Source of the DNA: Henckelia pumila
Taxonomy: Eukaryota; Streptophyta; Magnoliopsida; Lamiales; Gesneriaceae
Assembly: GCF_033568475.1 (NCBI RefSeq)
Contig: NC_133123.1
Span: forward strand, 6,014,001-6,078,000
DNA: 64,000 nt
Direction of reading: 5' to 3'
The notes beneath the pieces were generated by a model. The model ran no database searches, was not told the origin of the DNA, and saw only the letters and a list, made by a program, of their open reading frames with translations. Numbering within the stretch: the stretch's first letter is position 1; each line of letters opens with the position of its first letter. Of the stretch, positions 423 through 47,306 are shown piece by piece. The position numbers and the translations under genes are program-made.

Positions 423-3400
423 GTCAAAAAGATTTGTCCAAATGACCCTGATGCTACCAAGAAATTGAAGGAATGCGAGAAAGCAGTTATGAAGCTAAAA
501 TTTGAAGATGCAATTTCTGTACCTCAATCTGAAAGACATTCAGTAGCTGATTCTATTGATTATCACACTATAGGTATGCGATAATGTTATCACTGCCAAC
601 TAAAATTATTTGTCACCTCTTTCTTTGTGTGGATGGTGTTAAAATTGTTTCCAGTCTTATCTGGTCTACTACCAACACTTGTGTCCCCGAAATTTGTTAA
701 TTGTTGTGACACTCCTCTTAGTACAGTCGAGTAGCAGGAGTTTTGAGTCTAAAGTTTTAGGTGGTGACGTGGTGTTCGGATGTGATTTCTTATCTTGGCA
801 TTTTGAGAATGGGTAATCTGAGTTTGCTTAGAAACTGTTGTAATGTGTTATGAAAGTAGAAAATATTTTAAACTTGCAATTGATTGGTGAATTGGAAAAA
901 GGTTATCTAGATGGGGTTCAGAGATGAGAAAGCTTGTTTCCGAATCCCACCAAAACACAGGTTTAATGTTTAAACTTGTAATTCCTAGCCTTCTACCCCT
1001 CTCTATTTGAGGGATACTGGGAATGGAACATTTCAATTACCGATCGAAACCTCAGATCTATCAATTAAGCAATATTTATTTTGAGATCTACCTTTTGAAG
1101 ATTTTTTCTGCTGCTTAGCAGCTATCTATTCACGAATTTCTTTGTACTTGAGAGCAGTGTGTGGAGTCTCAATATTGAGTTGTATTTGGTGTTTCTAGTT
1201 ACAATTTTTTAATCTAGCAACAAACCCCTTTTCACCCATTTAAACCTTGCATAAATGACCAAGTTACTCTCCAGTTCTCATGACATCCTTTGATATTTAC
1301 GATTCACTCATTCACATTTTATTATTTTGTGGTAGTTGAACCTTTAAGTAGTAAGCTTATTATATTTTCTTTTTTTTCCCCTTTTTAAGAAATATCATTT
1401 GTCAGAATTATTTTTGTTTCCAAAAACTGGGTTTAAATTGTGGACTTAAGTAAGAATGATCTAAAGTTTTTAATGATTCAAATATAAATCCATTTATTAA
1501 AGTGTAATGGGCTATTGACCATTATAATAAATTTAACAGATGCTGACAAAGGCACGTGAAATTCTTTTCCTTGATATATCATCATTTTGGTAAAATAAAT
1601 GGTGATCACTAAACATTTAAGATATTTTGTTATAAAATAAAAAAATAAATATAACAAATGGATGAAACCATAATATAAGTTTTTTTGAAACTGAATTGTA
1701 AGTGTCAAATACAATTAGTTTAGGTAAACCTTATACTTAGTCATGTTAATAAATATGTAACTGTGGATGTCGGTAACTCTTACACTTACTAGTATATTAC
1801 TATTTTATCATTATAGGGGATAGGGCAGGCTCATCTTTTGTTTCCCTGAGAGCTACTGCTGTAGCAGCGGCAGTCGCTGTAGTGGCAGTAATGGCAGTAT
1901 ATATGGGGGCTAAAGCAGCCATAGCAGTGGCAGCGAGAGCTGTGGTGATGATATTGGTGGTCTGGGTAACATTTTGGCATGGTCGCCGCAACGAAGGTGT
2001 CTTTACCAAGGGTCAAACATTTGACTTAGGTAGAACTTTTAAGATAAACTCAATTAATGAGGACCGAGGAGATATAAACTCACGATCTTCTAAGTTGGAA
2101 AAGTCGACCTTTTAATTGTGGATAAAATATAAGTTCTAGGCAAGTCTGTGTGTGAAAATTAGTTTAACACAGCTAAATATTATCATCTCTTTGATGTTGC
2201 TGCCTAATACAATTGCGTTTGTTGACCCAAGGAACTTTAGTAGTTGGAGATTAGAGTTCAGTTGTTCCCTATGGTGTCTGGTCTAACTCTACTGAGTGAT
2301 AAGTAGAAGAGAATTGCTATCAACTAGTTGGACAAACCACGAATAATTGTCTGTTCTCAAGTAAGGTTTCAAATTTTCACCAGTATATCAGCTGCAAAGT
2401 TCTAAGTTTCAGACGGACATGTTTGAAAAATAATTTGTTGAAATTTTTAGATATAGAATGTGTTATCTGATGACTGATGCTGCTTCTTTTTTCTCTCGTT
2501 TTCTTGCCAAATCAAAAGTTTAATTATTATTGAACCACTCTCAGGTCTGCCTTGCAAAATTTCTAGATCATATAGTGAATTGGGTTGGTTGTTGAACCAA
2601 ACATAATCTAAAGTTGTATCTTTAGTGGAACCAAAGACAAGTCATAACAAACTTTATTTCAGACCCCTTGTTTGACAAAAAAGCGCCAACTTGTTAGTGC
2701 CAGATAATTGAGGCCTAAATCAGATCATGACATTTCAAAACTTGTTCGTTTTGGTTCAGAAGCATAGATTAGGAGAAAAGAATTGGTGTGGAATTGGCGA
2801 TGCGTGGGTGATATTGGATTTTTGAACAATGTTAGTCGTCATAAACTTATCTGATGAATCCATAACATTTATGATCTGGGTTTAAGGTGCTTACCAACAG
2901 GCTTAACATTCCTGTTTAGTTCTTGATGTTATTTGTATGCAATTATTCTAAAAAGAATGCCAACTTGCTAGAACATCATAAAAATATTTACTGCTTCATG
3001 CTCTATATTCCTTAACCAATTTATAAACCTGAAAAATTAACAATGATTGTGTTTTCTGTTCTTAGACGTGGAATCTCAATATACTGGTGCTAGAATAGAA
3101 GGAGATGTTGTGACTTTGGAATTTGTGAAGAAAATGATGGATGATTTCAAGAACCAGAAGTGCTTACACAAAAGGTATACAATGGTACATACTACTTTGA
3201 CTGTCATATGTTGTGACAAATTTAAAAAAAACTTTATATTTTGGAAGGTCCAAGTCGTCTATTTTTAGATTTGTGAAATGATATTTTATAGAAGAAGTTA
3301 GATGGATCTGAATGTTAGTTTCCATTATATTACAGATACGCCTACCAGATTGTGCTACAGTTAAGAGAGACGCTTCGGGCACTGCCATCTCTTGTTGATA

Positions 3401-6400
3401 TCAATGTTCCCGATGGGAAACATTTCACTGTATGTGGTGATGTACATGGCCAGGTAATTCCTCTTCTGTCATTAATTTTCTCTGAACAATCTTGGTTTGT
3501 TATCTTTGCCTTATTTTGTGAGCCTCACTTAACATGATAATTTTCTAAAATGCATGTTCAACAATTGTTTTGTATGTGCAAACATTATTTCCTGAGGACT
3601 TGCACTCTTTTACTTGGCGGTAACAACCTTTCTTTGTATATTCTGTTAAAACTATTTGTATGCTAAGTATGTTGAGAAACTTGCAGCACATTGCTGGGTA
3701 TAGTGGATTTGTTGAGATACTTGATTAACTTTCAGTTTTCTTTAGCGTTTGGAAGGTGTAATTAAAAAAAGTATGTTTTGCATGTAAAAATCTATAACTC
3801 ACGCATCTAGCCCTGATGATGGACTCAACTTTTAAAATGTTTTGATATCATTTTAAGAGTTTCTCTTGTTTTGTATCAATTATTGTTTTTGTTGGTTGCT
3901 TATGTGGTTTGGATTTCAGTTGACTGACATCTCTTTTGGTTTATGACGTGTTACAACTACACAAAAGTTTTGTTTGATATTTTTCTTTTTTCTTTTTAAA
4001 AAGTTACTCTCTCTCTGTACATACATACATATATATATATGTATGTATCTATTACTATATACCAAGGGAGAGTGCATAATAGAAACTGTCATTTGGTGAA
4101 GCGTTTTCACATTCCAATAATACCTTTTTAACTTCACCCACTATCCACATTAATTTTCTTTTTTTTTTTTAATAAAAAAAAACCTCATCCAATCATGTTA
4201 ATCCACACATTCCTTTTTCTCGCAAACTCACCATTTTTACCACGTAGCGTCTACATTTTGATTGGTCGATCACTAAATCTATTAATAATGTAAATATTAA
4301 AATTTGTATTAGATTTAGATTTAATTTGATATAGAATTGCATAAAAAATTCATTAAAAAAACTAATGTAAAAAAGTAAAATATTCCATGCGTGTGCATTG
4401 TAGCTAGCATGTATGTATGTATGTTATTGATTGATGATTCATATTTGGTGATTGCAGTTTTACGATTTAATGAATATATTTGAGCTCAATGGGCTTCCAT
4501 CAGAGGATAATCCGTATCTGTTCAATGGAGACTTTGTAGATAGAGGTTCATTTTCTGTTGAAGTGATACTCACACTATTTGCCTTCAAATGCATGTCGCC
4601 ATCAGGTATCCTCCCTATGTTCTTGAATTTTGGATTTCATTGCACTATACAGTTTATTCCGTCACTGTTAGGGTACAAACAGATTGAACCAAGTGGAGTA
4701 TTATTTATTTATTTTTTTAAAATTGATCTGTTCTCACTTCTCAAAGAATTACTGCACGTAGGATTGAATCTGATAGTATTTTTTCCGCAATGGTTTCAGC
4801 TATGTACCTTTCTCGAGGGAACCATGAAAGCAAGAGCATGAACAAAATATATGGTTTTGAGGGCGAGGTCAAGTCGAAATTGAGTGATAAGTTTGTGGAA
4901 CTATTTGCTGAAGTGTTTTGTTGTTTACCTCTGGCTCATGTCATAAATAAGAAAGTTTTTGTGGTCCACGGAGGACTTTTCAGCGTTGATGGTGTTAAGC
5001 TCTCTGAAATCAGAGCAATTGATCGATTTTGTGAGCCTCCTGAGGAAGGTAAGCAAAAGATGTGGTGGTATAATTATTTGTTAATTTTGTTTGACACTTC
5101 TGTTTGTTGTACGCTTGTATCCATGTAGCCTTACAAGGAAAAGAGCTTCAAAGATATTTATGTTTTTACCCATTTCCATGGCATTAGTTTTACCCAACGT
5201 TGTTCTCGTTGACGCTCTTAAAAAAATTGACTGCTTTTAACTGAAGCTTACTTATACGAATTCTAGTAATTACTGATACCTTAACACACATTTACCTGGT
5301 AATGGGTTAGAGCACCCACAATGGGTGTTCAATGCATTGTGGGTGGGTGTTAATAACACCCACCCCAAGGAGAGAGGAGCCGGGCGTTAACGCCCGGCTC
5401 CACTATTCCTTCTTTTTTTTTTAATTGTGCGTGCATGCACGGCCAGACACTTTGTGTATGCACGCGCCATTAGGAGAGTGAAAAGTGCAGACGCGTGGGG
5501 CCCGCGTCTGCACCTTTAATATTTTTTTTTTCAATTTTTTAATTTAAATAAAATATAAAAAATGGTAAAATTGTTTGAAATGGTCCAATTTTTAATATTG
5601 TTTTAAATTAATAAAATTAAAACTAGAAAATAAGAATATTATTTAAATAATAAATATAAATTTAAATATTTTAAGATATGTTTAAAATATATTTATTAAA
5701 TGAAAAGTAATTTTATATTGATTGTGTGGAATGTGGGACCCATAAATAATGAGTGTTATTGTTAAAAGGGTTGTGGGTGTTATAAGGTATGCGTTATTAA
5801 CAGTGGGGTCCAAAACTTTTGATGATGTGGAGAGTGTTATTGTGTTAATAACGAGATAGCACTGCGGATGCTCTTAGGATGTTCGTTATATGCTCGTGTC
5901 TCATGAAATATATGTTGACTGGCTTATTTTTCGGAATCAGTATTCCCAAAATTCTTGATGACTGTTCCCTATCCCTCTCTTTTTTCTTTAGGAAAACTTC
6001 AAGTAGGATTCTAGGATATTAATTATTATACACGTGTTATAAGGGGACCGAAATCAGGAGTAGGAGTGGATAAAGGGAATATACTAAAGTGAGTGAGGAG
6101 ATTGAGCCGATTCAAGAGTTCTGTTTATTTGTGAGAGGATGTATGAACATTCTTTACTCAGTTAGACAAGTTGTAACTCCCGTCTGCTTTATGAAATCTC
6201 TCTTTACAGAGATCTCATGGATGTTTTTTTTAACCTCATTTTAAGGGAACCGGAAAATATAGTTTTGAATTTTAAAGTTTGGGTTTATCTGGTAACCTGA
6301 TTAAATGCTCTAGAAAGGTGGTTTCAACACGGCCACTTCTGACCCTTCTATGAAAGCTGATGTTTTTTTGACACAAAATTCTTGTATAATAATTTGTAAT

Positions 6401-7740
6401 ACAACCTAAGATTTTTTTTCCTTTACATGGTGCTACGGTAGTTGAAGCCTGATTGTACCTGCTCTTCCTTGTCAAGTAGATCCTAGGTTATGAAGTTGCA
6501 GTAACACTGCATTCGATTCCTCACTTGTATCACCTGGAGCAAGGGTGTCGTGTTGATGATATCTGAAGGATCTATTTCAATGTCTACTGCTTTGCCATCT
6601 AAATTTTGGATAAGAATTGACTGCCTTTTGTGATTTGTAAACGTTACATAGGGTTGCTTCTAACATCCTAGTTCCTGTGCTTTTTTGTTTAGTTGAAGGC
6701 ATATCTTGTTACTCTTCCTAAAGATGATTGCTTCTGCAGTTAGGTTGATAATATCATAAGCTGAATTTTTTAGACAATTAATAATCACATGTTACACGAT
6801 GCTGTTATCTGGGGTGTAATGGCAAATGTCATGCATTCTTTTCTATGGTATTCAGGGTTGATGTGCGAATTGCTATGGAGTGATCCACAACCTCAACTTG
6901 GGAGGGGACCCAGCAAGCGTGGCGTTGGTCTTTCATTTGGTGCTGATGTAACAAAAAGATTTTTGCAGGACAACAACCTAGGTTGTTTTCTATGGATTTT
7001 ATTCAAGTCCACGGCATTGTCTATGCACTTTATATTTTCACAAACTAAACATCTTCACCTCAACTTGTTGATGCTTTACAGATTTAGTAGTGCGGTCGCA
7101 TGAAGTCAAGGATGAAGGTTACGAGATCGAACATGATGGTAAACTTATCACCGTGTTCTCTGCCCCAAATTACTGCGATCAGGTAAACTTCTTGTCTCCA
7201 TTCGTCTTACACCATATGATTGTTTTGAGCATTTTTATGCAACCATGTCGTTCCACAAACATGTACGGGAACGGCAAACTTGCTTGTATAATGCTATCTT
7301 GCTTTTGTATGGGATAGTTTTTTTTCTGACTTTATCTGATAGCCAGATTCTGGTTAATATTTTATCTGCTTGTTGCAGATGGGAAACAAGGGTGCCTTTA
7401 TTCGTTTTGAAGCTCCTGATCTGAAACCAAATATCGTCTCCTTTTCAGCTGTGGTTAGTAGCTTCCCTCCTGCACAAATGCCCCTAACCACATACCACAA
7501 AATTAGCAAATGAAAATTTTTACCACTATCGTTTTCTGGCGTACCTTCTAAATTTTACCTGGAGGGCGGTTTGAATCCTAGTCTGCGCGAAAACAACCAT
7601 CCCGTTTCATTTTAGCATGAATTTACACTGTTATGGTTAGATAACAAATTTTGACAGTGAAATCTTTTGATCAATCACAGCCGCACCCAGACGTCAAGCC
7701 AATGGCCTACGCAAACAATTTCCTGCGAATGTTCTCATAA
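423..7740 (+). CDS. PP5: Serine/threonine protein phosphatase 5 (PP5), 3' part
   Basis: This is a PPP-family phosphatase that removes phosphate from Ser/Thr; plant PP5 acts with Hsp90 and phytochrome. Constitutive exons: 423-573, 3066-3174, 3336-3453, 4458-4605, 4800-5048, 6856-6981, 7082-7182, 7379-7453, 7681-7740. Together they give 378 residues plus a stop. The first visible exon is the end of the TPR region ([19 protein letters not shown]); about 100 N-terminal residues lie left of the window. The metal-binding and catalytic motifs are all present: [33 protein letters not shown] and FSAPNYCD. The C-terminus is the PP5-type [12 protein letters not shown]. All borders are GT-AG and keep phase. 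An optional cassette exon at 1817-1996 is listed separately. The gene looks intact. The family is certain; the exon borders are inferred from the sequence alone. Confidence 0.95.
1817..1996 (+). CDS. PP5: Alternative in-frame hydrophobic cassette exon of PP5
   Basis: This 180-base segment lies in the large intron between exons 423-573 and 3066-3174. It is preceded by TTATAG and followed by a GTGTCT donor. It begins and ends in the same phase as the exons around it, so including it adds exactly 60 residues without changing the frame. The 60 residues are dominated by Ala, Val, Met and Ile (for example [20 protein letters not shown], then [12 protein letters not shown]) and end with a basic HGRRNE. 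This fits two membrane segments. Arabidopsis PP5 is known to have a longer membrane-bound isoform, made by including an exon at this same place between the TPR and phosphatase domains. That makes functional homology likely. Use of the exon in this species cannot be seen from DNA. Confidence 0.85.
4007..4050. repeat. Simple repeat (TC, then TACA/TA)
   Basis: A short microsatellite in a PP5 intron. A CT run is followed by TACA units, a TA run and TATG units. Confidence 0.7.
5310..5873. mobile_element. PIF/Harbinger (Tourist)-like MITE in a PP5 intron
   Basis: A 564-base element starts GAGCACCCACAATG and ends with the near reverse complement (CACTGCGGATGCTC). It is flanked by TTA on both sides (5307-5309 and 5874-5876). 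TTA duplications and GAGCATCC-type ends are typical of plant PIF/Harbinger MITEs. It has no coding capacity. The middle is AT-rich, and the left part contains two strong palindromes (5341-5365 and 5376-5401). It lies in the 1.8 kb intron between exons 4800-5048 and 6856-6981. Confidence 0.8.
5376..5401. repeat. Perfect 26-base GC-rich palindrome inside the MITE
   Basis: The left arm GGAGCCGGGCGTT is followed directly by its exact reverse complement with no loop. A second, near-perfect palindrome (GGGTGGGTGTTA arm) lies just upstream at 5341-5365. Both lie within the MITE at 5310-5873. Confidence 0.85.
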
Positions 7741-8852
7741 ACCGTGATCTCCTGACCTGGGCTGCCTTTTATCCCAATTCTTCACGCTTGTTGCCTAACA
7801 AGTGCAAAATAGCAGCAGAGGGCTGAAAGAATTCGTTCACGTCAAGGGAAACACGTGTATTTGCCTATACAGACGGCTCTTTTCTGACTTGCCCCAATGT
7901 GGATTTCAAAGTTATAGGCTTAGCAGGCTACACACAGCGGTCGCCATCATTTGTATTCATGTTATATAATCATTGCTCATTGTGATTTTAATTTGCCTTG
8001 GATATCAATAATCAATTTTGCCTTATTATGCTACGTATCAAGCCGCAAGTAATGAGCGTCCCTTAGTATTCTTTTTTAAAAAAATTATAAAAATTTAAGG
8101 GTTGCATCATTTTTTTTGTAAAAAAAATCCAAAACTTCTCATGTCCAACTAGAATGTGGGAAACATAAAGGTTTAGCAGCAAGTCTAGAGATCAATGTTT
8201 ATCAACTTGTGAAGTTGAATTCAAATTACACAAAATTTACTAATGTACGAATAAGGAGCGAAAGGGACATTCCATTCGAGCATGAAACATCTTTACACAG
8301 AAAGACATGAACTGTGTAACCTGTCCCATGAAAATTAAAATCAATGTTGAAGCACCGGTTACTTACACTGTTACCCTTTTCCTTTTTTCATCATCAAGTC
8401 ATTTCCCCTCTTTCCCTTTTCATCGCCATTCAATCATCAAGTCTTGATCAAATGAAGCACTCCTCGGTTTTTGACGCAATTATCATGTATTTCGTGTTGA
8501 ATCTTTGGAAATTTATCATTCTTAGTGTTCTTGTACTAAACCATTTGCCAATAATTTATCCTTGATCACAAAACATGGACTGTAAAATATGGGAAGATTT
8601 GAATTGCCATCTCCCGGCATGGTTTCACTCTCATGATAATAAAATTAGATTCTTGACCCTACATTAGCTTCAATTTTCTCACCCAAAATCATACCCCACC
8701 CATCACGTCAATCAAATCTTTGCACAATTTTCATTTACCCATCTCCCTCTTTCTAGCGTTTGAATCCGAAGAAGGCTCCCCAGCATTGTGAGACCACCAT
8801 TTCCACTCCAATGACAAATTTTATTCACCAAATTCAACTCAAAATAAAGAAG
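7741..8852. other. Intergenic region between PP5 and the RLP29-like gene
   Basis: About 1.1 kb holding the PP5 3' UTR and the promoter and 5' leader of the next gene. I see no coding region, RNA gene or clear repeat. Short open frames here lack any recognisable protein. Confidence 0.6.
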
Positions 8853-30760: not shown

Positions 30761-30948
30761 GCCGAGCTGAGCCTCTGGAACCAAACTTCCGACCTGACCT
30801 AAAATGTGTTCTCAGATTGCCTAATTGGGCTCCCGAGCTCCCCAGCCAATATTCCTGGACCGCCAGCTCATCTACATGAGACCACTATGAAGTGACCCGC
30901 AACTGAACTGCGCCCGAAAATCAGGGTCGAGGTGACTAGACTAAGGCA

Positions 30949-32035
30949 AAGGGCTGAACCAAAGTCAGGGGCCTAAGAGGCGTGACTAAGGTGATGAGCT
31001 GAACCCAAGTCAGGGGCTCAAGGAGCGTGACTAAGGTGATGAGCCGAACCCAAGTCAGGGGCTCAAGGAGCGTGACTAAGGTGATGAGCTGAACCCAAGT
31101 CAGGGGCTCAAGGAGCGTGACTAAGGTGATGAGCTGAACCCAAGTCAGGGGCTCAAGGAACGTGACTAAGGTGATGAGCTGAACCCAAGTCAGGGGCTCA
31201 AGGAGCGTGACTAAGGTGATGAGCCGAACCCAAGTCAGGGGCTCAAGGAGCGTGACTAAGGTGATGAGCTGAACCCAAGTCAGGGGCTTAAGAAGCGTGA
31301 CTAAGGTGATGAGCTGAACCCAAGTCAGGGGCTCAAGGAGCGTGACTAAGGTGATGAGCCGAACCCAAGTCAGGGGCTCAAGGAGCGTGACTAAGGTGAT
31401 GAGCTGAACCCAAGTCAGGGGCTCAAGGAGCGTGACTAAGGTGATGAGCCGAACCCAAGTCAGGGGCTCAAGGAGCGTGACTAAGGTGATGAGCTGAACC
31501 CAAGTCAGGGGCTCAAGGAGCGTGACTAAGGTGATGAGCCGAACCCAAGTCAGGGGCTCAAGGAGCGTGAGGTGATGAGCTGAACCCAAGTCAGGGGCTC
31601 AAGGAGCGTGACTAAGGTGATGAGCTGAACCCAAGTCAGGGGATCAAGGAACGTGACTAAGGTGATGAGCTGAACCCAAGTCAGGGGCTCAAGGAGCGTG
31701 ACTAAGGTGATGAGCCGAACCCAAGTCAGGGGCTCAAGGAGCGTGACTAAGGTGATGAGCTGAACCCAAGTCAGGGGCTTAAGAAGCGTGACTAAGGTGA
31801 TGAGCTGAACCCAAGTCAGGGGCTCAAGGAGCGTGACTAAGGTGATGAGCTGAACCAAAGTCAGGGGCTCAAGGAGCGTGACTAAGGTGATGAGCCGAAC
31901 CCAAGTCAGGGGCCTAAGAGGCGTGACTAAGGTGATGAGCTGAACCAAAGTCAGGGGCTTAAAAAGCGTGACTAAGGTGATGAGCTGAACCAAAGTCAGG
32001 GGCTCAAGGAGCGTGACTAAGGTGATGAGCTGAGG
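30949..32035. repeat. Minisatellite, 45-base unit, about 24 copies, in the Tat-type element
   Basis: A regular tandem array repeats GTGACTAAGGTGATGAGC plus a GAACCCAAGTCAGGGGCTCAAGGA part. The period is 45 bases (for example, matching phase between 31081 and 31261). Copies differ at few positions, and higher-order alternation of GAGCTG and GAGCCG copies is visible. Tandem repeats between pol and the 3' LTR are a known habit of Ogre/Tat elements. Open frames across it are a by-product of the period being a multiple of three. Confidence 0.92.
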
Positions 32036-32136: not shown

Positions 32137-33840
32137 TTAAGAATAATATTTGCGTAAATTGTAAGCGCTCCAAGGTCTCTTCAACATCTTTCCTTTTGAA
32201 TCCTCCAAGTAGTAAGCATCCGAACTGAGCCTCATCACCACCTTGTATGGTCCTTCCCATTTAGGGTCGAGCTTCCCTACAGCCACCTCCTGAACTTTTC
32301 TCAGCACCAAATCTCCTACCTGGAAATCCTTCCTGCGCACCCGACGATTATAGGACCGAGCTATCCTGTTCTTGTATGCCTCCATCCTGATAGCAGCAGC
32401 TTCTCTCTTTTCACCCAAAAAGTCTAAGTCTTCCCTCCTTCTCTTTCCATTTTCTTCATCATAGAAAATGATCCGAGCCGACTCCTCTTCAATTTCTACT
32501 GGCAGGACGACCTCATTTCCATACACCATACTAAATGGAGTCTCTTCAGTTCCAATTCTTGGTGTGGTACGATATGACCATAACACACTAGGGAGCTCTT
32601 TCACCCAATTTCCCTGGGCTTGGCCTAAACGCGTCTTCAAGCTTTGCACCAAAGACCTATTAGTCACCTCCACCTGACCATTACTCTGAGGATAATGGAC
32701 AGATGTGAAGTGTTGCTGAATTTTCATTTCTTTACACCAATGCACTCGAGCCCCTTGAAACTGCCTCCCATTGTCAGATATGAGCTTACGTGGTACTCCA
32801 AATCTGCACACAATATTCTTCCACAGAAATTTCAAGACTTGCCCTTCAGTAATTCGAGCTAAAGCCTCGGCCTCAACCCATTTAGAGAAGTAATCAATGG
32901 CAACCAACAAGAATTTCTTTTGAGCTGGGGCTGGAGGGAAAGGACCCACAATATCAATTCCCAATTGATCGAAAGGACATGCTGCTACTATCCCTTTCAT
33001 TAACGCTGCTGGTTGGTGCTGAAGTCTACTATGTCTTTGACAACTATCACAAGAAGTCACCAAAGTTATGGCATCCTTCAGAATAGTGGGCCAAAAATAT
33101 CCCGCCAAGAGAACCTTACGAGCTAGAGAATAAGACCCTAAATGATTACCACAACACCCCTCGTGTATCTCCTTTAGGACATAATGAGCTTCTTTGGGGC
33201 CTATACACTTGAGAAGAGGTCCGGCAAATGACCTCTTATAAAGAACTCCCTCCATCATCACAAAGCGGAGACTCCTCTGTTTCAACCGATATGCCTTCTT
33301 CGGATCCTTTGGTAACTCCCCCTTCTCTATGTAATCCAAGAGCTCCTTTCTCCAGTCACTCTCTTCCTGAGCTAATGGTGAGAGCTCAGTAGAGGGTGTC
33401 AATTCCACTTGCACAACAACTTTCCTGGTCTTCCAGCTATGAAGTGAGCTAGCCATCTTGGCGAGATAATCTGCTTTTTCATTGTCCTCCCTCGGAATTT
33501 GTTCAAACAACACCTCATCAAAGAAACCCTTAGCTTCCTCTATCGTCCTCATATATTCCTTCAGCTTTTCATTTTTGACTTCATACGTTCCATTTACCTG
33601 CTGGGCTACTAACTGTGAATCAGAGTAGAGGTGCACCCGAGCTGCCCCAGCTTGCTTAGCTGCTCGGAGGCCAATCAACACAGCCTCATACTCTGCTTCG
33701 TTATTAGAAGCTCGAAAATCCAACCTAACTGCTAATCTGATCTCATCTCCACGAGGGGAGATCAAAAACACCCCCACCCCACATCCTTCACTATTAGAAG
33801 AGCCGTCAACGTATACTTTCCACAAATCCTCTGCTTCCAT
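32137..33840 (-). CDS. Second RNase H and integrase block of the Tat-type element
   Basis: The block opens with an archaeal-type RNase H (VYVDGSSNSEGCGVG; NNEAEYEAVLIGLR; LYSDSQLVAQQVNG), a domain gained by the Tat lineage. The integrase follows, with a zinc-binding HHCC region (ending CDSCQRH), a catalytic core (GIDIVGPFP, ISDNGRQFQ) and a C-terminal chromatin- or DNA-binding tail (GDLVLRKV...WEGPYKV). It directly follows the gag-RT block on the element strand. Confidence 0.88.
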   Translation of the reverse strand: MEAEDLWKVYVDGSSNSEGCGVGVFLISPRGDEIRLAVRLDFRASNNEAEYEAVLIGLRAAKQAGAARVHLYSDSQLVAQQVNGTYEVKNEKLKEYMRTIEEAKGFFDEVLFEQIPREDNEKADYLAKMASSLHSWKTRKVVVQVELTPSTELSPLAQEESDWRKELLDYIEKGELPKDPKKAYRLKQRSLRFVMMEGVLYKRSFAGPLLKCIGPKEAHYVLKEIHEGCCGNHLGSYSLARKVLLAGYFWPTILKDAITLVTSCDSCQRHSRLQHQPAALMKGIVAACPFDQLGIDIVGPFPPAPAQKKFLLVAIDYFSKWVEAEALARITEGQVLKFLWKNIVCRFGVPRKLISDNGRQFQGARVHWCKEMKIQQHFTSVHYPQSNGQVEVTNRSLVQSLKTRLGQAQGNWVKELPSVLWSYRTTPRIGTEETPFSMVYGNEVVLPVEIEEESARIIFYDEENGKRRREDLDFLGEKREAAAIRMEAYKNRIARSYNRRVRRKDFQVGDLVLRKVQEVAVGKLDPKWEGPYKVVMRLSSDAYYLEDSKGKMLKRPWSAYNLRKYYS

Positions 33841-33866
33841 ATGTCTCGTTTCGGCAAGGAAATCAG

Positions 33867-36800
33867 CTAACGCTGGGCCTTAACGGCCGTCCTTGGTTCA
33901 TACTGGATATCATACTCACTGAGCTCCGTAGTCCACTTTACCAACCTTCCCGAAATATCAACTCGAGTTAATATCCTCCCAATATGGCTGTTGGTTAGCA
34001 CCACAATAGGATGTGATAGAAAGTAAGGTCTGAGCTTCCTTGCTGTCATAACCAAGGCTAATGCTAACTTTTCCACCTCTGAATACCGAAGTTCTGCACC
34101 CTTAAGGGCATGTGAGAAGAAATAGATAGGGTGTTGAGCTGTTCTCTCCTGCCTAATAAGTACTGAGCTAACGGCCCCTTCCAAAGCTGATAAGTAGATG
34201 TACAATGGTTCACCAGGAATTGCCTTAGCCAACACAGGGAGCTCAGCTAAGTAACTTTTTAAGTCATCAAATGCCTTCCCGCATTCATCATCCCATTCAA
34301 ACTTCTTGGCTTTGCGAAGCACCTTGAAGAAAGGTAAGCTTCTATGGGCTGATCTTGATATAAATCGAGACAAGGCTGCAATCCTTCCTGCCAACCTTTG
34401 AACTTCTTGCAAGTTACGGGGAGCAGACATGGATCGAATAGCCTGCACCTTCTCAGGATTGGCCTCTATGCCCCTCTCAGTAACCATATACCCCAAAAAC
34501 TTACCTCCCCTGACTCCGAACACACACTTCTCCGGATTAAGCTTCACCTGATAAGCCCTCAAAGTCGAGAAAGTCTCCTCTAGGTCGGCCAGCAACCCCA
34601 CATCATCCTGAGACTTTACCAGAATATCATCTACATAAACTTCCATATTTCTGCCAATTTGGGAGGCAAACACTCTGTCCATGAGTCTTTGATAAGTGGT
34701 CCCTGCATTCTTCAAACCAAAAGGCATCACTCTGTAACAAAAAGTTCCATGAGAGGTGGTGAAACTTACTTTGTCCTGATCTTCCTCCACCAGAGGAATT
34801 TGATGATACCCTTGATATGCATCCATGAAGCATAAGTACTGATGATCTGCCGTTGAATCAACCAATTGATCAATTCGAGGCAGGGGATAGCAATCCTTTG
34901 GGCATGCCTTATTTAGGTCCCTGAAATCAACACACATCCTCCACTTGCCTGAACTCTTAGGGACAAGGACCACATTGGATAACCAGGTAGGGAATTGCAC
35001 TTCCCTAATGTGTCCTGCCTTAAGAAGTTCCTCTACCTCTTTTTTAATGACTTTATCCTTGTCTGGACCAAAGTGTCTCTTCTTCTGTTTTATCGGTCTT
35101 ACTCCCGCAAGAATATTTAATCGATGAACCATAATTTCTGCACTGACCCCTGTGAGCTCCGATACAGACCAAGCAAAAACATCTTTGTTCTTCCTTAAGC
35201 AACCAACCAAATTTTGCTTCACTGATGGGCTCAGATCAGCAGCTAATTTGACAATCTGAGCTCCCGGGATTAATTCCACCTTCTCATGACCTTCTTCGGA
35301 CATCAGAAGCACCTTCTGTCCGTGTGTCTTCAATGTTCGACCTATTGAAACCATTCCTACCTCCCTCTTCTTCTTCTTTGAATCAATCCTTACCTCATTC
35401 ACATAGCATAACCGAGCTGCTTTCTGATCACCCCGAACAACCCCCACTTCTCTTCCACTTGGGAACTTCAACTTCTGATGATAGGTAGATGCCACGGCTC
35501 GGAAATCACTCAGGGCAGGGCGCCCCAATATTCCATTGAAAGAGGATGGTGCCTCCACCACGGTGAAGCAAGCCATTTTGGTTACTCTCTGCTCTCCACT
35601 CCCAAGGGACAAGGGGAGCACTATCTGTCCCAATGGTTGCAGAGCATGACCCGTGAACCCATACAACTCTGTGGTGATTGGATCCAATTCAAATCCTTCC
35701 AATTTCATTTGGTCCAGAGTTTCTTTAAAGATAATGTTTACTGAGCTCCCAGTATCCACAAAGATACGAGCCACGTCATAATTGGCTATGGTCAAAGTGA
35801 CCAGTAGGGGATCATTATGAGGTAGCACCACATCCTTTAAATCTTCCCTTCCGAAACTGATGTTCGGGTCAGTGGGACAGCTGAGTTGCGAACTTACCTC
35901 AAAATTTTCCAACCTACGCCCGTGAGCTTTGCGAGCCCTTCCCGAATCTCCATCCGTACTACCCCCGGAGATCATATGGATAACACCCCGATCGGGATGA
36001 TTTGCAATCTGTTGCACCCTATCTCCTCGACCGTTTGGAGAAGCTCTTCCCTGATGATCACCTTGATTCTCTCTATCTTCATTCCTTTGATTCCTCCATT
36101 GAGGAGCTCGGCCTTGGCGAGGAGGATTTGCTCTTTGAGTCAGCTCAGCTCTGATTCGAGGGTCATCATACATGATCCTTTGAACCTCCTCACCTAGCCT
36201 CTGACAATCATTGGTGATATGCCCATACTCCTGATGAAAATCGCAAAACTTGTCAGATGGCGGTAACCGCGGGCCTTTCTCAGCATTGCGGGGCCTCACA
36301 AGTGCTCGCCTATCCTCACATACTTGCATTGCCTTCTCCAGGCTCACCGATAGGGGTACATAGGGGTAGGGTCCTTTGGCCCTGTTCATCTCTTCTGCCA
36401 CCCTCTTCCTTCCTCCTTCTGTCTTTCCCTCGGCCTTTGCTCCCACCTTGGCACTAGGCTTACTTCCAGACGTTCCTTCCTGTCTCCTCTGCCTCTGTGC
36501 ATCCTCCAAATTCACGTACTTCTCAGCTCTACTAAGGAGCTCATCATAAGTCAAAGGAGGCTTCTTGACTAAGGATCTGAAAAACTCCCCTCCTCTCAAC
36601 CCTTGAGTGAAAGAGTTGACCAAGGTGTCCGCCGTGGCAGCAGGTACTTCCAGAGCTGCTGTATTGAAGCGCTGAACATACTCCCGCAACGATTCCACCT
36701 CAGATTGCTTCATATTGAACAAACTGAGAGAAGTCTTCAAATATTTCTTGCTACTCGCATACTGGTGTAGAAAAGCTGAGCTGAAGTCATTGAAACTCTG

Positions 36801-37241
36801 AATACTACCAGGCTGTAAAAGGTTGAACCATTGCTGGGCTGACCTTACCAAAGTAGTGAGGAAGACCCGACATTTAATTGCATCTGAATATCTATGCAAC
36901 AAGGCTGCATTTTCAAATCTCCCCAAGTGTTCCTCCGGATCTGAGCTCCCGTCATACTCCCCTAAAGTAGGCTGCTTAAAATTTGCAGGGAGTTCCTCAT
37001 CTAAAATAGCCCGAGCAAAAGGACTTTCCCTTTGTATAGGCCCAGGCCGACCTCCTACTTGCCGACCTAGTCTCCTAATCTCTTCCCACACCGCATCCAT
37101 TGGGTTTGGCTGACCCACGGGAGGAGGTGGTGGATTGTGACCCATGGCCGCTTGCACCGTTTGAGTGATGAACTGACTGAGCTGATCTACAATCATATCC
37201 GCCACATTTCCTCTTCCCCTTCCTCTTCCTCTTCCTGCCAT
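33867..37241 (-). CDS. Gag, protease, RT and RNase H block of the Tat-type element
   Basis: This long reading block starts just inside the 5' LTR with a Gly/Arg-rich stretch (MAGRGRGRGRG). A gag capsid region follows at roughly residues 100-260, then a Cys/His knuckle (CDFHQEYGHITNDC) near residue 330. Next come the aspartic protease (VDTGSS, near residue 495), the reverse transcriptase (residues ~700-900; YVDDILVKS) and the first RNase H and connection region at the end. It is a fossil virus-like element part; the protein families are certain. Confidence 0.9.
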   Translation of the reverse strand: MAGRGRGRGRGNVADMIVDQLSQFITQTVQAAMGHNPPPPPVGQPNPMDAVWEEIRRLGRQVGGRPGPIQRESPFARAILDEELPANFKQPTLGEYDGSSDPEEHLGRFENAALLHRYSDAIKCRVFLTTLVRSAQQWFNLLQPGSIQSFNDFSSAFLHQYASSKKYLKTSLSLFNMKQSEVESLREYVQRFNTAALEVPAATADTLVNSFTQGLRGGEFFRSLVKKPPLTYDELLSRAEKYVNLEDAQRQRRQEGTSGSKPSAKVGAKAEGKTEGGRKRVAEEMNRAKGPYPYVPLSVSLEKAMQVCEDRRALVRPRNAEKGPRLPPSDKFCDFHQEYGHITNDCQRLGEEVQRIMYDDPRIRAELTQRANPPRQGRAPQWRNQRNEDRENQGDHQGRASPNGRGDRVQQIANHPDRGVIHMISGGSTDGDSGRARKAHGRRLENFEVSSQLSCPTDPNISFGREDLKDVVLPHNDPLLVTLTIANYDVARIFVDTGSSVNIIFKETLDQMKLEGFELDPITTELYGFTGHALQPLGQIVLPLSLGSGEQRVTKMACFTVVEAPSSFNGILGRPALSDFRAVASTYHQKLKFPSGREVGVVRGDQKAARLCYVNEVRIDSKKKKREVGMVSIGRTLKTHGQKVLLMSEEGHEKVELIPGAQIVKLAADLSPSVKQNLVGCLRKNKDVFAWSVSELTGVSAEIMVHRLNILAGVRPIKQKKRHFGPDKDKVIKKEVEELLKAGHIREVQFPTWLSNVVLVPKSSGKWRMCVDFRDLNKACPKDCYPLPRIDQLVDSTADHQYLCFMDAYQGYHQIPLVEEDQDKVSFTTSHGTFCYRVMPFGLKNAGTTYQRLMDRVFASQIGRNMEVYVDDILVKSQDDVGLLADLEETFSTLRAYQVKLNPEKCVFGVRGGKFLGYMVTERGIEANPEKVQAIRSMSAPRNLQEVQRLAGRIAALSRFISRSAHRSLPFFKVLRKAKKFEWDDECGKAFDDLKSYLAELPVLAKAIPGEPLYIYLSALEGAVSSVLIRQERTAQHPIYFFSHALKGAELRYSEVEKLALALVMTARKLRPYFLSHPIVVLTNSHIGRILTRVDISGRLVKWTTELSEYDIQYEPRTAVKAQR

Positions 37242-42078: not shown

Positions 42079-45000
42079 ATAATTATTTAATTATGATTAT
42101 CATTATATGCATTGCATCATTATCACAAATTTTTATTCAACACATACTCGATTTTTTTTCTTTACCCCCAATGGTCACAAACGGCTAATTTTTGCCCTAT
42201 AAATATGTTCACTCAAACTCATTTTCAATCACACCAAATTCACTCTTTCTCTCAAAATATTTTCTCCTCGGTTTTTTTTTAAAAAAAGAAGAAGATGGTG
42301 TTTTTGACCTTTCTAAGGCTATTTTTCATAACGACTATGATCATCATGCTCACGAGTTTTGTACTCACCGGTGATTTTCCACCACAGATTTTTTTATCTA
42401 TTTATATACGCACTTGTAATTTTCGTCCTTCCATTATTTTGTATTATCATACTAATAGAAATTAACTAATAAAATGCATTGTTATTTTTCTAGTACCACC
42501 ATGTCAAATTTGGCAAAGATTGAATTCGTTGCGCTCGATATCACTGGAAAGAATTATATGTCATGGACTCTCGATGTAGAGATGCATCTTGAGTCATTGG
42601 GTCTAAGTGATACCATTAAAGAAATTAATATATCAACCTCACAAGATAAAGCAAAGGCAATGATTTTCTTACGCCGACATCTTGATGAAGGGTTGAAATG
42701 TGAGTATCTCACAGAAAAAGACCCAATGATTTTATGGAAAGGGTTGAAAGAAAGATTTGAGCATATAAGGGAAGTAATACTTCCGACCGCCCGTGATGAA
42801 TGGAATTCGTTGAGAATCCAAGACTTTAAAAAAGTCAGTGATTATAATTCTGCGATGTATCGAATAGTCTCGCAATTAAAATTCTGTGGACTTGAAGTCA
42901 CAGAGATGGAAATGCTTGAGAAAACGTTTTCCACTTTTCACGCATCAAATATAACTCTACAGCAACAGTATAGAGTGCGTGGTTTTACGAGATATTCTGA
43001 ACTCATTGCATGTCTTCTTGTGGCGGAAAAGAACAACGAATTGTTAATAAGAAATCATCAATCCCGACCCACTGGATCAACGGCATTTCCTGAAGCAAAT
43101 ATCGTAATGAAAAATAAAACCAAAATCAAAGACATAGACCAAAATTTGGTCGTGGACGAGGTCGAGGAAGTGGGCGTGGGCGTGGACGTAAAAATTATCG
43201 CGGTCGTGGTCGTGGCCGTGGATATGAAAATAATCGAGATAGTTATTTCAATAACTCATCTCAAAAGAACGTCACGAACCACCCACCAAAAAGGCAGCAT
43301 GAAAATACGAGTGAAAATGAAAATCACTCAAAAAGATCTGAGAGTGTTTGTTATAGATGTGACACTCCAGGACATTGGTCACATATTTGTCAAACCTCTG
43401 AGCACCTATGTAAGCTCTATAAAGAATCGACAAAGGGAAAAGGAAAAGAGACCAATTTTGTTGAAAATAGTGACCATTTAATTGGTTCAACTAGTTTCAA
43501 TGCTTCAGATTTTTTGAATGATTTCGAAGACATTGATTAAAATATTGGTGGGATTAGATTGTAACAAATTTGTATTTTTTCTTGTATTATAAAGCATGTT
43601 ATATTTTGCATTTATATTGTACTTAATTTTTCTTTATTGCATTTTTGTGAAGTTTGATATGGAAAATGCTATGAGCAAACATGGAAATAATATCATGGAA
43701 ATTTGCATACCGGATAGTGGTACAACGCACACTATTCTGCGAGATGAAAGATATTTCTTGGAAATAAAACCAACAAAAACAATGGTGAATACAATATCAG
43801 GTCCTGGAGACTTGATTGAAGGTTGTGGTAAAGCACAATTTTTGTTACCAAATGGTACAAAATTTCTGATAAATGATGCTTTATATTCACCACAATCGAA
43901 AAGAAATTTGTTGAGTTTTAATGACATATATTCTCATGGATATGATACTGAGACGATAACTAATGGAAATCAGAAATATATGTGTCTTACCACATATAAA
44001 TCAGAAAAGAAATATGTGGTTGAAAAATTATCAATGCTCTCTACTGGATTGCATTATACACATATAAGGTCAATCGAATCAAATATGGTGGTTAATAGTT
44101 CTTCAATATTAATCAATTGGCATGATCGATTGGGACATCCTGGTTCAATAATGATGCGAAGAATTATTGAAAATACGCATGGTCATCCATTGAAAGACGA
44201 GAAGATCTTTCAGAATAATAAGTTTCAATGTAAAGCATGTTCTCTTGGAAAACTTATTATAAGACCATCTCCAGCTAAAATCCAAACAGAATCACCCATA
44301 TTTCTTGAACGCATTCAGGGTGATATTTGTGGGCCAATTCATCCACCATGTGGACCATTTCGATATTTTATGGTATTAATCGATGCCTCTAGCAGATGGT
44401 CACATGTATGCTTATTGTCAACTCGGAATGTGGCATTTGCAAGATTAATGGCTCAAATAATAAAATTGCGGAATCAATTTCCCGATTATACAATCAAGAA
44501 AATAAGACTTGATAATGCTGGAGAATTTACTTCCCAAACTTTCAATGACTATTGTATGTCAATGGGAATTACTGTTGAACATCATGTTGCTCATGTTCAT
44601 ACACAGAATGGATTAGCTGAATCATTGATTAAACGTCTAGAACTGATTGCTAGACCAATGATTATGAGAACAAAACTCCCTATTTCTATATGGGGACATG
44701 CAATTTTACATGCTGCGGCATTAATTCGCATCAGACCAAGTGCATATCATAAATTCTCCCCATTGCAGCTTGCATTTGGTAAAGAACCAAATATTTCTCA
44801 TCTAAGAATTTTTGGATGTACGGTGTATGTGCCTATTGCACCACCTCAACGATAAAAAATGGGTCCTCAAAGAAAAATCGGTATTTATATCGGTTATGAT
44901 AGCCCATCAATCATTCGATATCTTGAGCCTCAGACAGGCGATGTGTTTACAGCACGTTTTGCTGATTGTCATTTTAATGAAGAAATCTTTCCAATGTTAG

Positions 45001-47306
45001 GGGGAGAAAAGAAACACATCGAAAAAGAAATCACATGGTATGTACCATCATTGTTACATTTGGATCCAAGGACCAAATAATGTGAGAAAGATGTACAGCA
45101 AATTGTGCACTTGCAAAGAATTGCAAATCAAATACCAGATGCATTTGTAGACACAAAAGGGGTAACAAAATCATATATACATGCTGTAAATTCCCCTGCT
45201 CGAATTGAAATTCCAAAGAAACAAATTGAAGACACTCATGATGTCATAAAACGCTTGAAGCGTGGAAGGCCAGTCGGTTCCAAGGATAAAAATCCTCGGA
45301 AAAGAAAAGGCATAGAGAAACACGATGATCATAAAATAGAAAATGGTATTCCAGAAGAAACACCTGATGATGAAAATGTTCTGTCAGAACCACAAACTGA
45401 CGAGAATCGTGAAATCTCTATCAATTATATTAATACTGGAAAAATATGGAACCGAAAAGATATAGAAGATATTGATGAGATATTTTCTTATAATATGGCA
45501 TGTGACATCATAAATGAAAACGAGGATCATGAACCAAAAACCTTTGGTGAATGTAAAACTCACATGATTGGGCAAAATGGAAAGATGTCATCCAGGTTGA
45601 ATTGGATTCGCTAAGTAAACGTAATGTTTTTGGACCTATAGTCCCCACACCTGAAGGTGTAAAACCTGTTGGATACAAATTGGTTTTTATTCGAAAGCGA
45701 AATGAGAAAAATGAAATAGTAAGATATAAAGCTAGACTTGTTGCACAAGATTTTTCTCAAAGGTCTGGAATTGATTATGAAAAAACTTATTCTCCTGTTA
45801 TGGATGCAATTACGTTTCGATATTTGATTAGTTTGGCAGTGTCTGAAAATTTGGAAATGTGTCTGATGGATGTTGTTACAGCTTTACTTATACGGATCAC
45901 TTGATAGTGATATATACATGAAAATCCCCGAAGGATTTAAGATGCCTGAGGCACAAAGTTTAAAACCCAGAGAATTTTATTCTGTAAAATTGCAAAGATC
46001 ATTATATGGGTTGAAGCAATCCGGCCGAATGTGGTATAATCGGCTAAGTGAGCACTTGATGAAAAAGGGATATGTAAATGATCCAATATGCCCTTGTGTT
46101 TTCATCAAGAAAACAACATCCGGATGTGTAATTATTGCTGTATATGTTGATGATTTAAACATCATTGGAACGAATAAAAAAATTCAAGAGGTTATGATGT
46201 ACTTGAAGGAAGAATTCGAAATGAAGGATCTTGGAAAAACCAAGTACTGTCTGGGTTTGCAAATAGAACAAAAAAAATGTGGAATTTTTGTTCATCAGGA
46301 AAATTATACAGAAAAGATCCTTAAACGTTTTAATATGGATAAATCAAATCCATTAAGTACTCCAATGGTTGTAAGATCATTAAACATAGAAAATGATTCA
46401 TTCCGTCCATGTGAAGATGATGAAGTTATTCTTGGTCCAGAAGTACCATATCTAAGTGTCATTGGTGCCCTTATGTATCTTGCAAATTGCACTAGACCAG
46501 ATATATCTTTTGCTGTAAATTTATTGGCAAGATTCAGTTCATATCCAACAAAGAGGCACTGGAACGGAATTAAACATATATTTCGTTATCTACGAGGAAC
46601 GACAGATTTGGGACTTTTGTACTCAAAAGACACCAATCAAAGTATCATTGGTTATGCCGATGTTGGATATTTATCTGATCCACATAAGGCACGTTCCCAA
46701 ACCGGATATGTATTTACTCGTGGAGGCACCGCAATTTCTTGGCGTTCACAGAAACAAACACTCGTAACAACTTCATCAAATCACGCTGAGATTATTGCGC
46801 TACATGAAGCAAGTCGTGAATGTGTTTGGCTAAAATCAATGACACAACATATCCAAACTTCTTGTGGATTATCAGTAGACAAGAAGCCTGTGACGTTGTA
46901 TGAAGACAATGCTGCATGTATTGCTCAAATGAAAGAAGGATACATCAAAAGTGACAGAACAAAACATATACCCCCAAAGTTCTTTGCCTACACTCAAAAG
47001 CTTGAGAAGAATAAAGATATTGATATCTGTTATATTCAATCAAGTGAGAACTCATCAGATCTCTTCACAAAGGCACTTCCCACGACGATATTCAGAAAAC
47101 ATATATACAACATTGGGATGCGCAATCTGCGGAATATATGAAGAATCACTCATGTTAACATGAGAGGGAGTTTACGTGGCTGCACTCTTTTTTTCTTACT
47201 ATGGTTTTTATCCCACTGGGTTTTTCCTAGTAAGGTTTTTAACGAGACATTATAAAACACGTAATAAAGACAGTCATCATATCACGATCATCATCACAAG
47301 GGGGAG

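Follow-up and report, generated by a model that had tools for sequence, protein, structure and literature searches.

The DNA analyzed here is a window of 64,000 nucleotides from Henckelia pumila (contig NC_133123.1, positions 6014001-6078000 within an 885-Mb genome), the start of which falls inside a gene that, judged by its predicted product, is plant PP5, combining a TPR part with a phosphatase part. When position 573 is joined to 3066, the spliced reading is an intact protein of 487 aa in which three TPR repeats, a PPP5 region and a PPP-type metallophosphatase domain follow one another in a single chain; in Pfam these correspond to three stretches of TPR_1, to PPP5 at residues 124-217 (the whole profile) and to Metallophos at residues 225-419. 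The best solved relative of this 487-aa protein is Arabidopsis PP5 (7obe_A, E 8.2e-293, query residues 5-487 of 487). The 7obe entry is named isoform 2 and was aligned to the short PP5 without any insert, and the same holds for all PDB chains in the examined alignments to the short protein. The fourth intron of the gene contains an in-phase open segment that is the candidate cassette exon considered below. The features of the gene are as follows (window positions unless indicated otherwise; a slash marks the exon-intron border).

L002 numbering 8056-8140, 8266-8435 and 8545-8616 (upstream of the window): PP5 exons 1-3, from the spliced reading
423..573, plus strand: constitutive exon 4, in which the TPR region ends and the linker begins, from translation and the spliced reading
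574..1816, plus strand: intron preceding the cassette, 1243 nt, 31% GC
1817..2029, plus strand: putative membrane cassette exon as preferred here, with 71 codons in 213 nt, phase 1-1 and the donor TAG/GTAGAA
1817..1996, plus strand: the same exon as originally predicted, with 60 codons in 180 nt and a donor, AAG/GTGTCT, that may serve as an alternative 5' splice site
1852..1911, plus strand: first hydrophobic stretch, about 20 residues, Kyte-Doolittle peak 2.16
1915..1977, plus strand: second hydrophobic stretch, about 21 residues with one Arg inside, Kyte-Doolittle peak 2.40
1997..2029, plus strand: extension past the donor at 1996, an 11-residue tail (codons 1996-2028)
2030..3065, plus strand: intron following the cassette, 34% GC
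3066..3174, plus strand: constitutive exon 5, remainder of the linker and start of the phosphatase domain
3336..7740, plus strand: exons 6-12 (3336-3453, 4458-4605, 4800-5048, 6856-6981, 7082-7182, 7379-7453 and 7681-7740, the last with the stop)

Intron 2, which lies upstream of the window (L002:8436-8544), is a GC-AG intron (AAG/GCGAGT...ACAG), and intron 8 carries at 5310-5873 a MITE-like insertion that has TTA at either side and inner inverted repeats, its ends (GAGCACCCACAATG... and ...GCACTGCGGATGCTC) being imperfect inverted copies of each other. Farther along the window, several shorter arrays of GAGCTC-rich units occupy the region of 27-31 kb, and a 45-bp unit repeated in tandem about 24 times (94% match) at 30939-32033 adjoins long minus-strand ORFs of retrotransposon type (32137-37241). 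Copia-like ORFs are found on the plus strand at 42474-47141 (both sets of ORFs were assigned by eye), and the 14-bp doublet ATGTTGAATATTGA, present at both 41356 and 47336, perhaps lies in the two LTRs. A search of the window with Rfam at gathering thresholds gave no matches.

Exon 4 of PP5 ends with ...SIDYHTI and the first base of the following codon, and the open segment enters in the same phase from an acceptor, ATTATAG/GGG, located just before 1817. In the original prediction the segment 1817-1996 was described as having an acceptor, a donor, matching phases at its ends and no stop, all of which are seen in the sequence. The donor is a GT, the length is 180 nt, and the segment both starts and finishes in phase 1. 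The frame of the cassette stays open beyond this segment as far as 2112, with a stop at 2113. The remaining two forward frames of the cassette both contain stops. Inclusion of 1817-1996 gives an intact reading of 547 aa and inclusion of 1817-2029 an intact reading of 558 aa; the insert separates the TPR part of the protein from its phosphatase part. If the cassette were entered and no donor used at all, the frame 1777-2112 would yield a TPR protein with the membrane segment and no phosphatase; the signals AATAAA, AATGAA and ATTAAA do not occur in 1997-3065. The open frame 1777-2112 has no Pfam matches at 0.001, and three NCBIfam matches below the cut-off (best E 0.031) were taken as chance.

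The inserts of the tomato and Arabidopsis proteins were used for comparison in the form of presumed sequences. The large PP5 isoform of tomato is taken to carry 71 extra residues (556 vs 485 aa, counted on the presumed sequences) and the Arabidopsis insert presumably comprises 54 residues following Ile156 of the 484-aa form, with a shorter middle and without the 11-residue tail, its end being, on the same assumption, TFWWG-SFSGK. The 71-residue insert of the window matches the presumed tomato insert in length and, without a gap, in 36 of 71 positions. The score and the identity of this match to the presumed reference were reached in none of 20,000 plain shuffles, nor in any of a further 20,000 that kept the hydrophobic pattern by swapping hydrophobic residues with one another and polar residues likewise. 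The other 35 residues differ from the presumed tomato sequence. The 538-aa isoform of Arabidopsis PP5/PAPP5 (AT2G42810) shares the presumed insertion site and 21 of 54 aligned residues of the presumed insert but differs from the Henckelia form in the shorter, tail-less insert that we assume for it. By comparison, the catalytic part of the Henckelia protein is identical to that of Arabidopsis in 291 of 328 positions and the TPR-linker part in 128 of 155 aligned residues; the Arabidopsis 484-aa sequence used here is that of the 7obe chain. The original prediction held that hydrophobicity, not sequence, is kept in the insert. The insert indeed changes faster than the enzyme (21/54 vs 291/328), but residue likeness is clear (36/71 with the presumed tomato insert), so that the insert appears to be a faster-evolving part of the protein and yet more than hydrophobic filler. 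Two observations count in favor of the presumed sequences: the presumed tomato tail matched genomic codons outside the exon as originally delimited, and the presumed Arabidopsis lengths agree with those in passages of two papers, 484 in PMC8551457 and 484/538 in PMC2939883.

The position of the exon end is less evident than that of its start: with the acceptor at 1817, in-phase GT ends that keep both hydrophobic windows are found at 1981, 1996, 2011 and 2029. Pairing with the 5' end of U1 is strongest at 2029 (-6.4 kcal/mol), followed by 1996 (-5.2), 2011 (-3.5) and 1981 (-2.6), and the 11 constitutive PP5 donors form U1 duplexes of -2.5 to -9.5 kcal/mol. On this scale 1996 and 2029 are donors of moderate strength, which counts against the cassette reading; the strength of the sites does not tell constitutive from alternative use. 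An end at 2029 gives the 71 residues of the presumed tomato insert, gapless, and adds an 11-residue tail identical to the presumed tomato tail, GFFTKSRTLEL, in 6 of 11 positions; for the tail alone, the score was reached in none of 20,000 shuffles and six identities in 3 of 20,000. The donor at 2029 is likely to be used, alone or together with 1996. The end at 1996 that was originally proposed is probably wrong or one of two donors, the frame being open to 2112 and the end at 2029 giving the presumed tomato length; we prefer 2029, with dual use possible.

Two alternatives concern the same boundary. Under the first, the exon is real but ends solely at 1996, with 60 residues, and the rest is intron. 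The donor AAG/GTGTCT is in phase, the presumed Arabidopsis insert stops five residues past TFWWG, which fits 1996 and equals the length of the exon end there, and the GC content falls from 0.53 to 0.39 past this position. On the other hand, U1 pairing is weaker there than at 2029, the frame does not close at 1996, and the likeness of the following 11 codons to the presumed tomato tail would be unexpected for an intron; we consider this boundary unlikely. Under the second, the donors at 1996 and 2029 are both used and produce nested membrane forms of 60 and 71 residues. The two donors share a phase, and 1996 fits the presumed Arabidopsis end as 2029 fits the presumed tomato end, but in-phase GT sites are not rare here, as the four listed above attest, and use of both also seems improbable.

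The two hydrophobic stretches between the TPR and phosphatase domains that were originally reported are present, with the peaks listed above. Hydropathy was measured as the best 19-residue Kyte-Doolittle means, and in the short PP5 without the cassette no 19-residue window exceeds 1.59, vs 2.16 and 2.40 in the insert. A chance origin was evaluated in two ways. Of 500 dinucleotide shuffles of the intron, 15 contained one or more in-phase AG..GT frames having two hydrophobic windows, and such a frame was also present in 5 of 86 window tiles of equal length (half-overlapping, taken from either strand, starting at 8001 and including coding stretches). Therefore, hydrophobicity alone is a 3-6% event and, by itself, is weak evidence for a membrane exon; composition, codon-position bias and homology carry the case. 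The GC content of 1817-1996 is 0.533, compared with 0.411 for the highest 180-nt stretch of the flanking intron, and GC by codon position is 0.61/0.50/0.40 in the cassette and 0.48/0.32/0.24 in exon 4, the same falling order. The shuffles and tiles are what speaks for an open frame of chance origin, or a decayed relic, that lies inside the intron and is never spliced in. The GC and codon-position pattern unlike that of the intron, the gapless 71-residue match to the presumed tomato insert, which takes the same position in the linker, and the intact splice phases all oppose such an origin, and we consider it very improbable. It is scarcely credible that the exon is always included, such that the species makes the membrane form only: the splice sites of the cassette do fall within the limits set by the constitutive ones of PP5, but skipping preserves the frame exactly, and Arabidopsis has a soluble form that is stable and folded as an enzyme (7obe, isoform 2).

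The gene in the window is the only PP5 locus found in the genome. The profile PF08321 matches a single place in the whole genome, and the cassette DNA searched against its own genome yields only its self-match. For the 558-aa protein, 53 matches in its own genome were listed (78 of 90 candidates scored), 12 of which are the PP5 locus itself, at 70-98% identity; the other 41, at 28-54% identity, cover parts of the phosphatase or TPR region and, although not individually checked, are taken for other phosphatases and TPR proteins. None of these 41 covers the cassette, and there is no second PP5 copy among the 53 listed matches, with the same 78 of 90 candidates scored. A processed copy of PP5 mRNA joining 573 to 1817 was sought because this junction in a fossil cDNA would be direct evidence of splicing; none is present among the 53 listed own-genome matches. 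The exon-8 peptide gave 74 pattern matches against genome_contigs and 4 against viral_contigs, with no confirmed relatives in either set, and thus there is no plant contaminant in them to provide a second cassette.

Taken together, the segment very probably represents the membrane cassette exon that plant PP5 is already known to include or skip by alternative splicing. This reading, a membrane cassette exon with probable homology to the known one, was already proposed in the original prediction and is well supported by the frame that is open with and without the cassette, by composition and by the match to the presumed insert. Passages of PMC7950214 describe alternative splicing of PP5 in Arabidopsis and tomato, where an extra exon gives rise to two putative transmembrane domains, a feature that the tomato large isoform has in common with the reading proposed here. 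According to the same passages, tomato has a soluble smaller isoform and a larger one that resides in the ER and nuclear envelope as an integral protein. The tomato isoforms are credited to de la Fuente van Bentem et al. (2003, Plant Physiol 133:702), as cited in passages of PMC7950214 and PMC8551457, and the same paper appears in the reference lists of PMC4100160 and PMC1082884. The larger splice form of PAPP5 is stated to have two additional transmembrane helices (passage of PMC8551457), and for AtPP5 two splice variants of 484 and 538 aa, in cytoplasm, nucleus and ER, are given in a passage of PMC2939883. In the main text of a 2026 paper on Arabidopsis PP5 (PMC13307163), the terms "isoform", "membrane" and "splic" are absent and the membrane form has no part; a text search of PMC8234546, on Brassica PP5.2, turned up no passage on a PP5 membrane exon.

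The insertion site in the window corresponds to the border between Ile156 and Glu157 of the Arabidopsis 484-aa form. It is located inside the linker, P115-T173 in the Arabidopsis crystal structure, and directly before P160-A165, a segment with lower deuterium uptake upon activation by arachidonic acid (both from passages of PMC8551457). Skipping of the exon would join 573 to 3066 and produce a soluble PP5 of 487 residues. Upon inclusion, the two hydrophobic segments, separated by a very short turn, would form a hairpin in the membrane of the ER or nuclear envelope, a topology that would keep the TPR and phosphatase domains both cytosolic. We infer the production and destinations of both forms in Henckelia from the published work on tomato and Arabidopsis; the hairpin topology and an effect of the insert on autoinhibition are likewise predictions. 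The Arg within the second hydrophobic segment counts against the membrane reading. An AlphaFold model of 1819-2028, made without an alignment, is a single continuous helix over residues 2-65 (pLDDT 79.4, pTM 0.37) with no hairpin. It gives the hairpin no support and yet is not decisive against it because the model knows no membrane and had a single sequence.

The find is mostly ordinary, although the segment probably extends beyond its originally proposed end. One more plant PP5 gene joins those of tomato and Arabidopsis, in which the splicing switch has been known since 2003, and a likely exon boundary is corrected for annotation. It is conceivable, if quite doubtful, that the two nested in-phase donors give two membrane forms with Arabidopsis-like and tomato-like juxtamembrane tails and that, with the insertion directly before P160-A165, splicing might set both the place of the phosphatase and its autoinhibition. 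The insertion beside a lipid-responsive segment of the linker raises the question whether insertion into the membrane may free the autoinhibited phosphatase.
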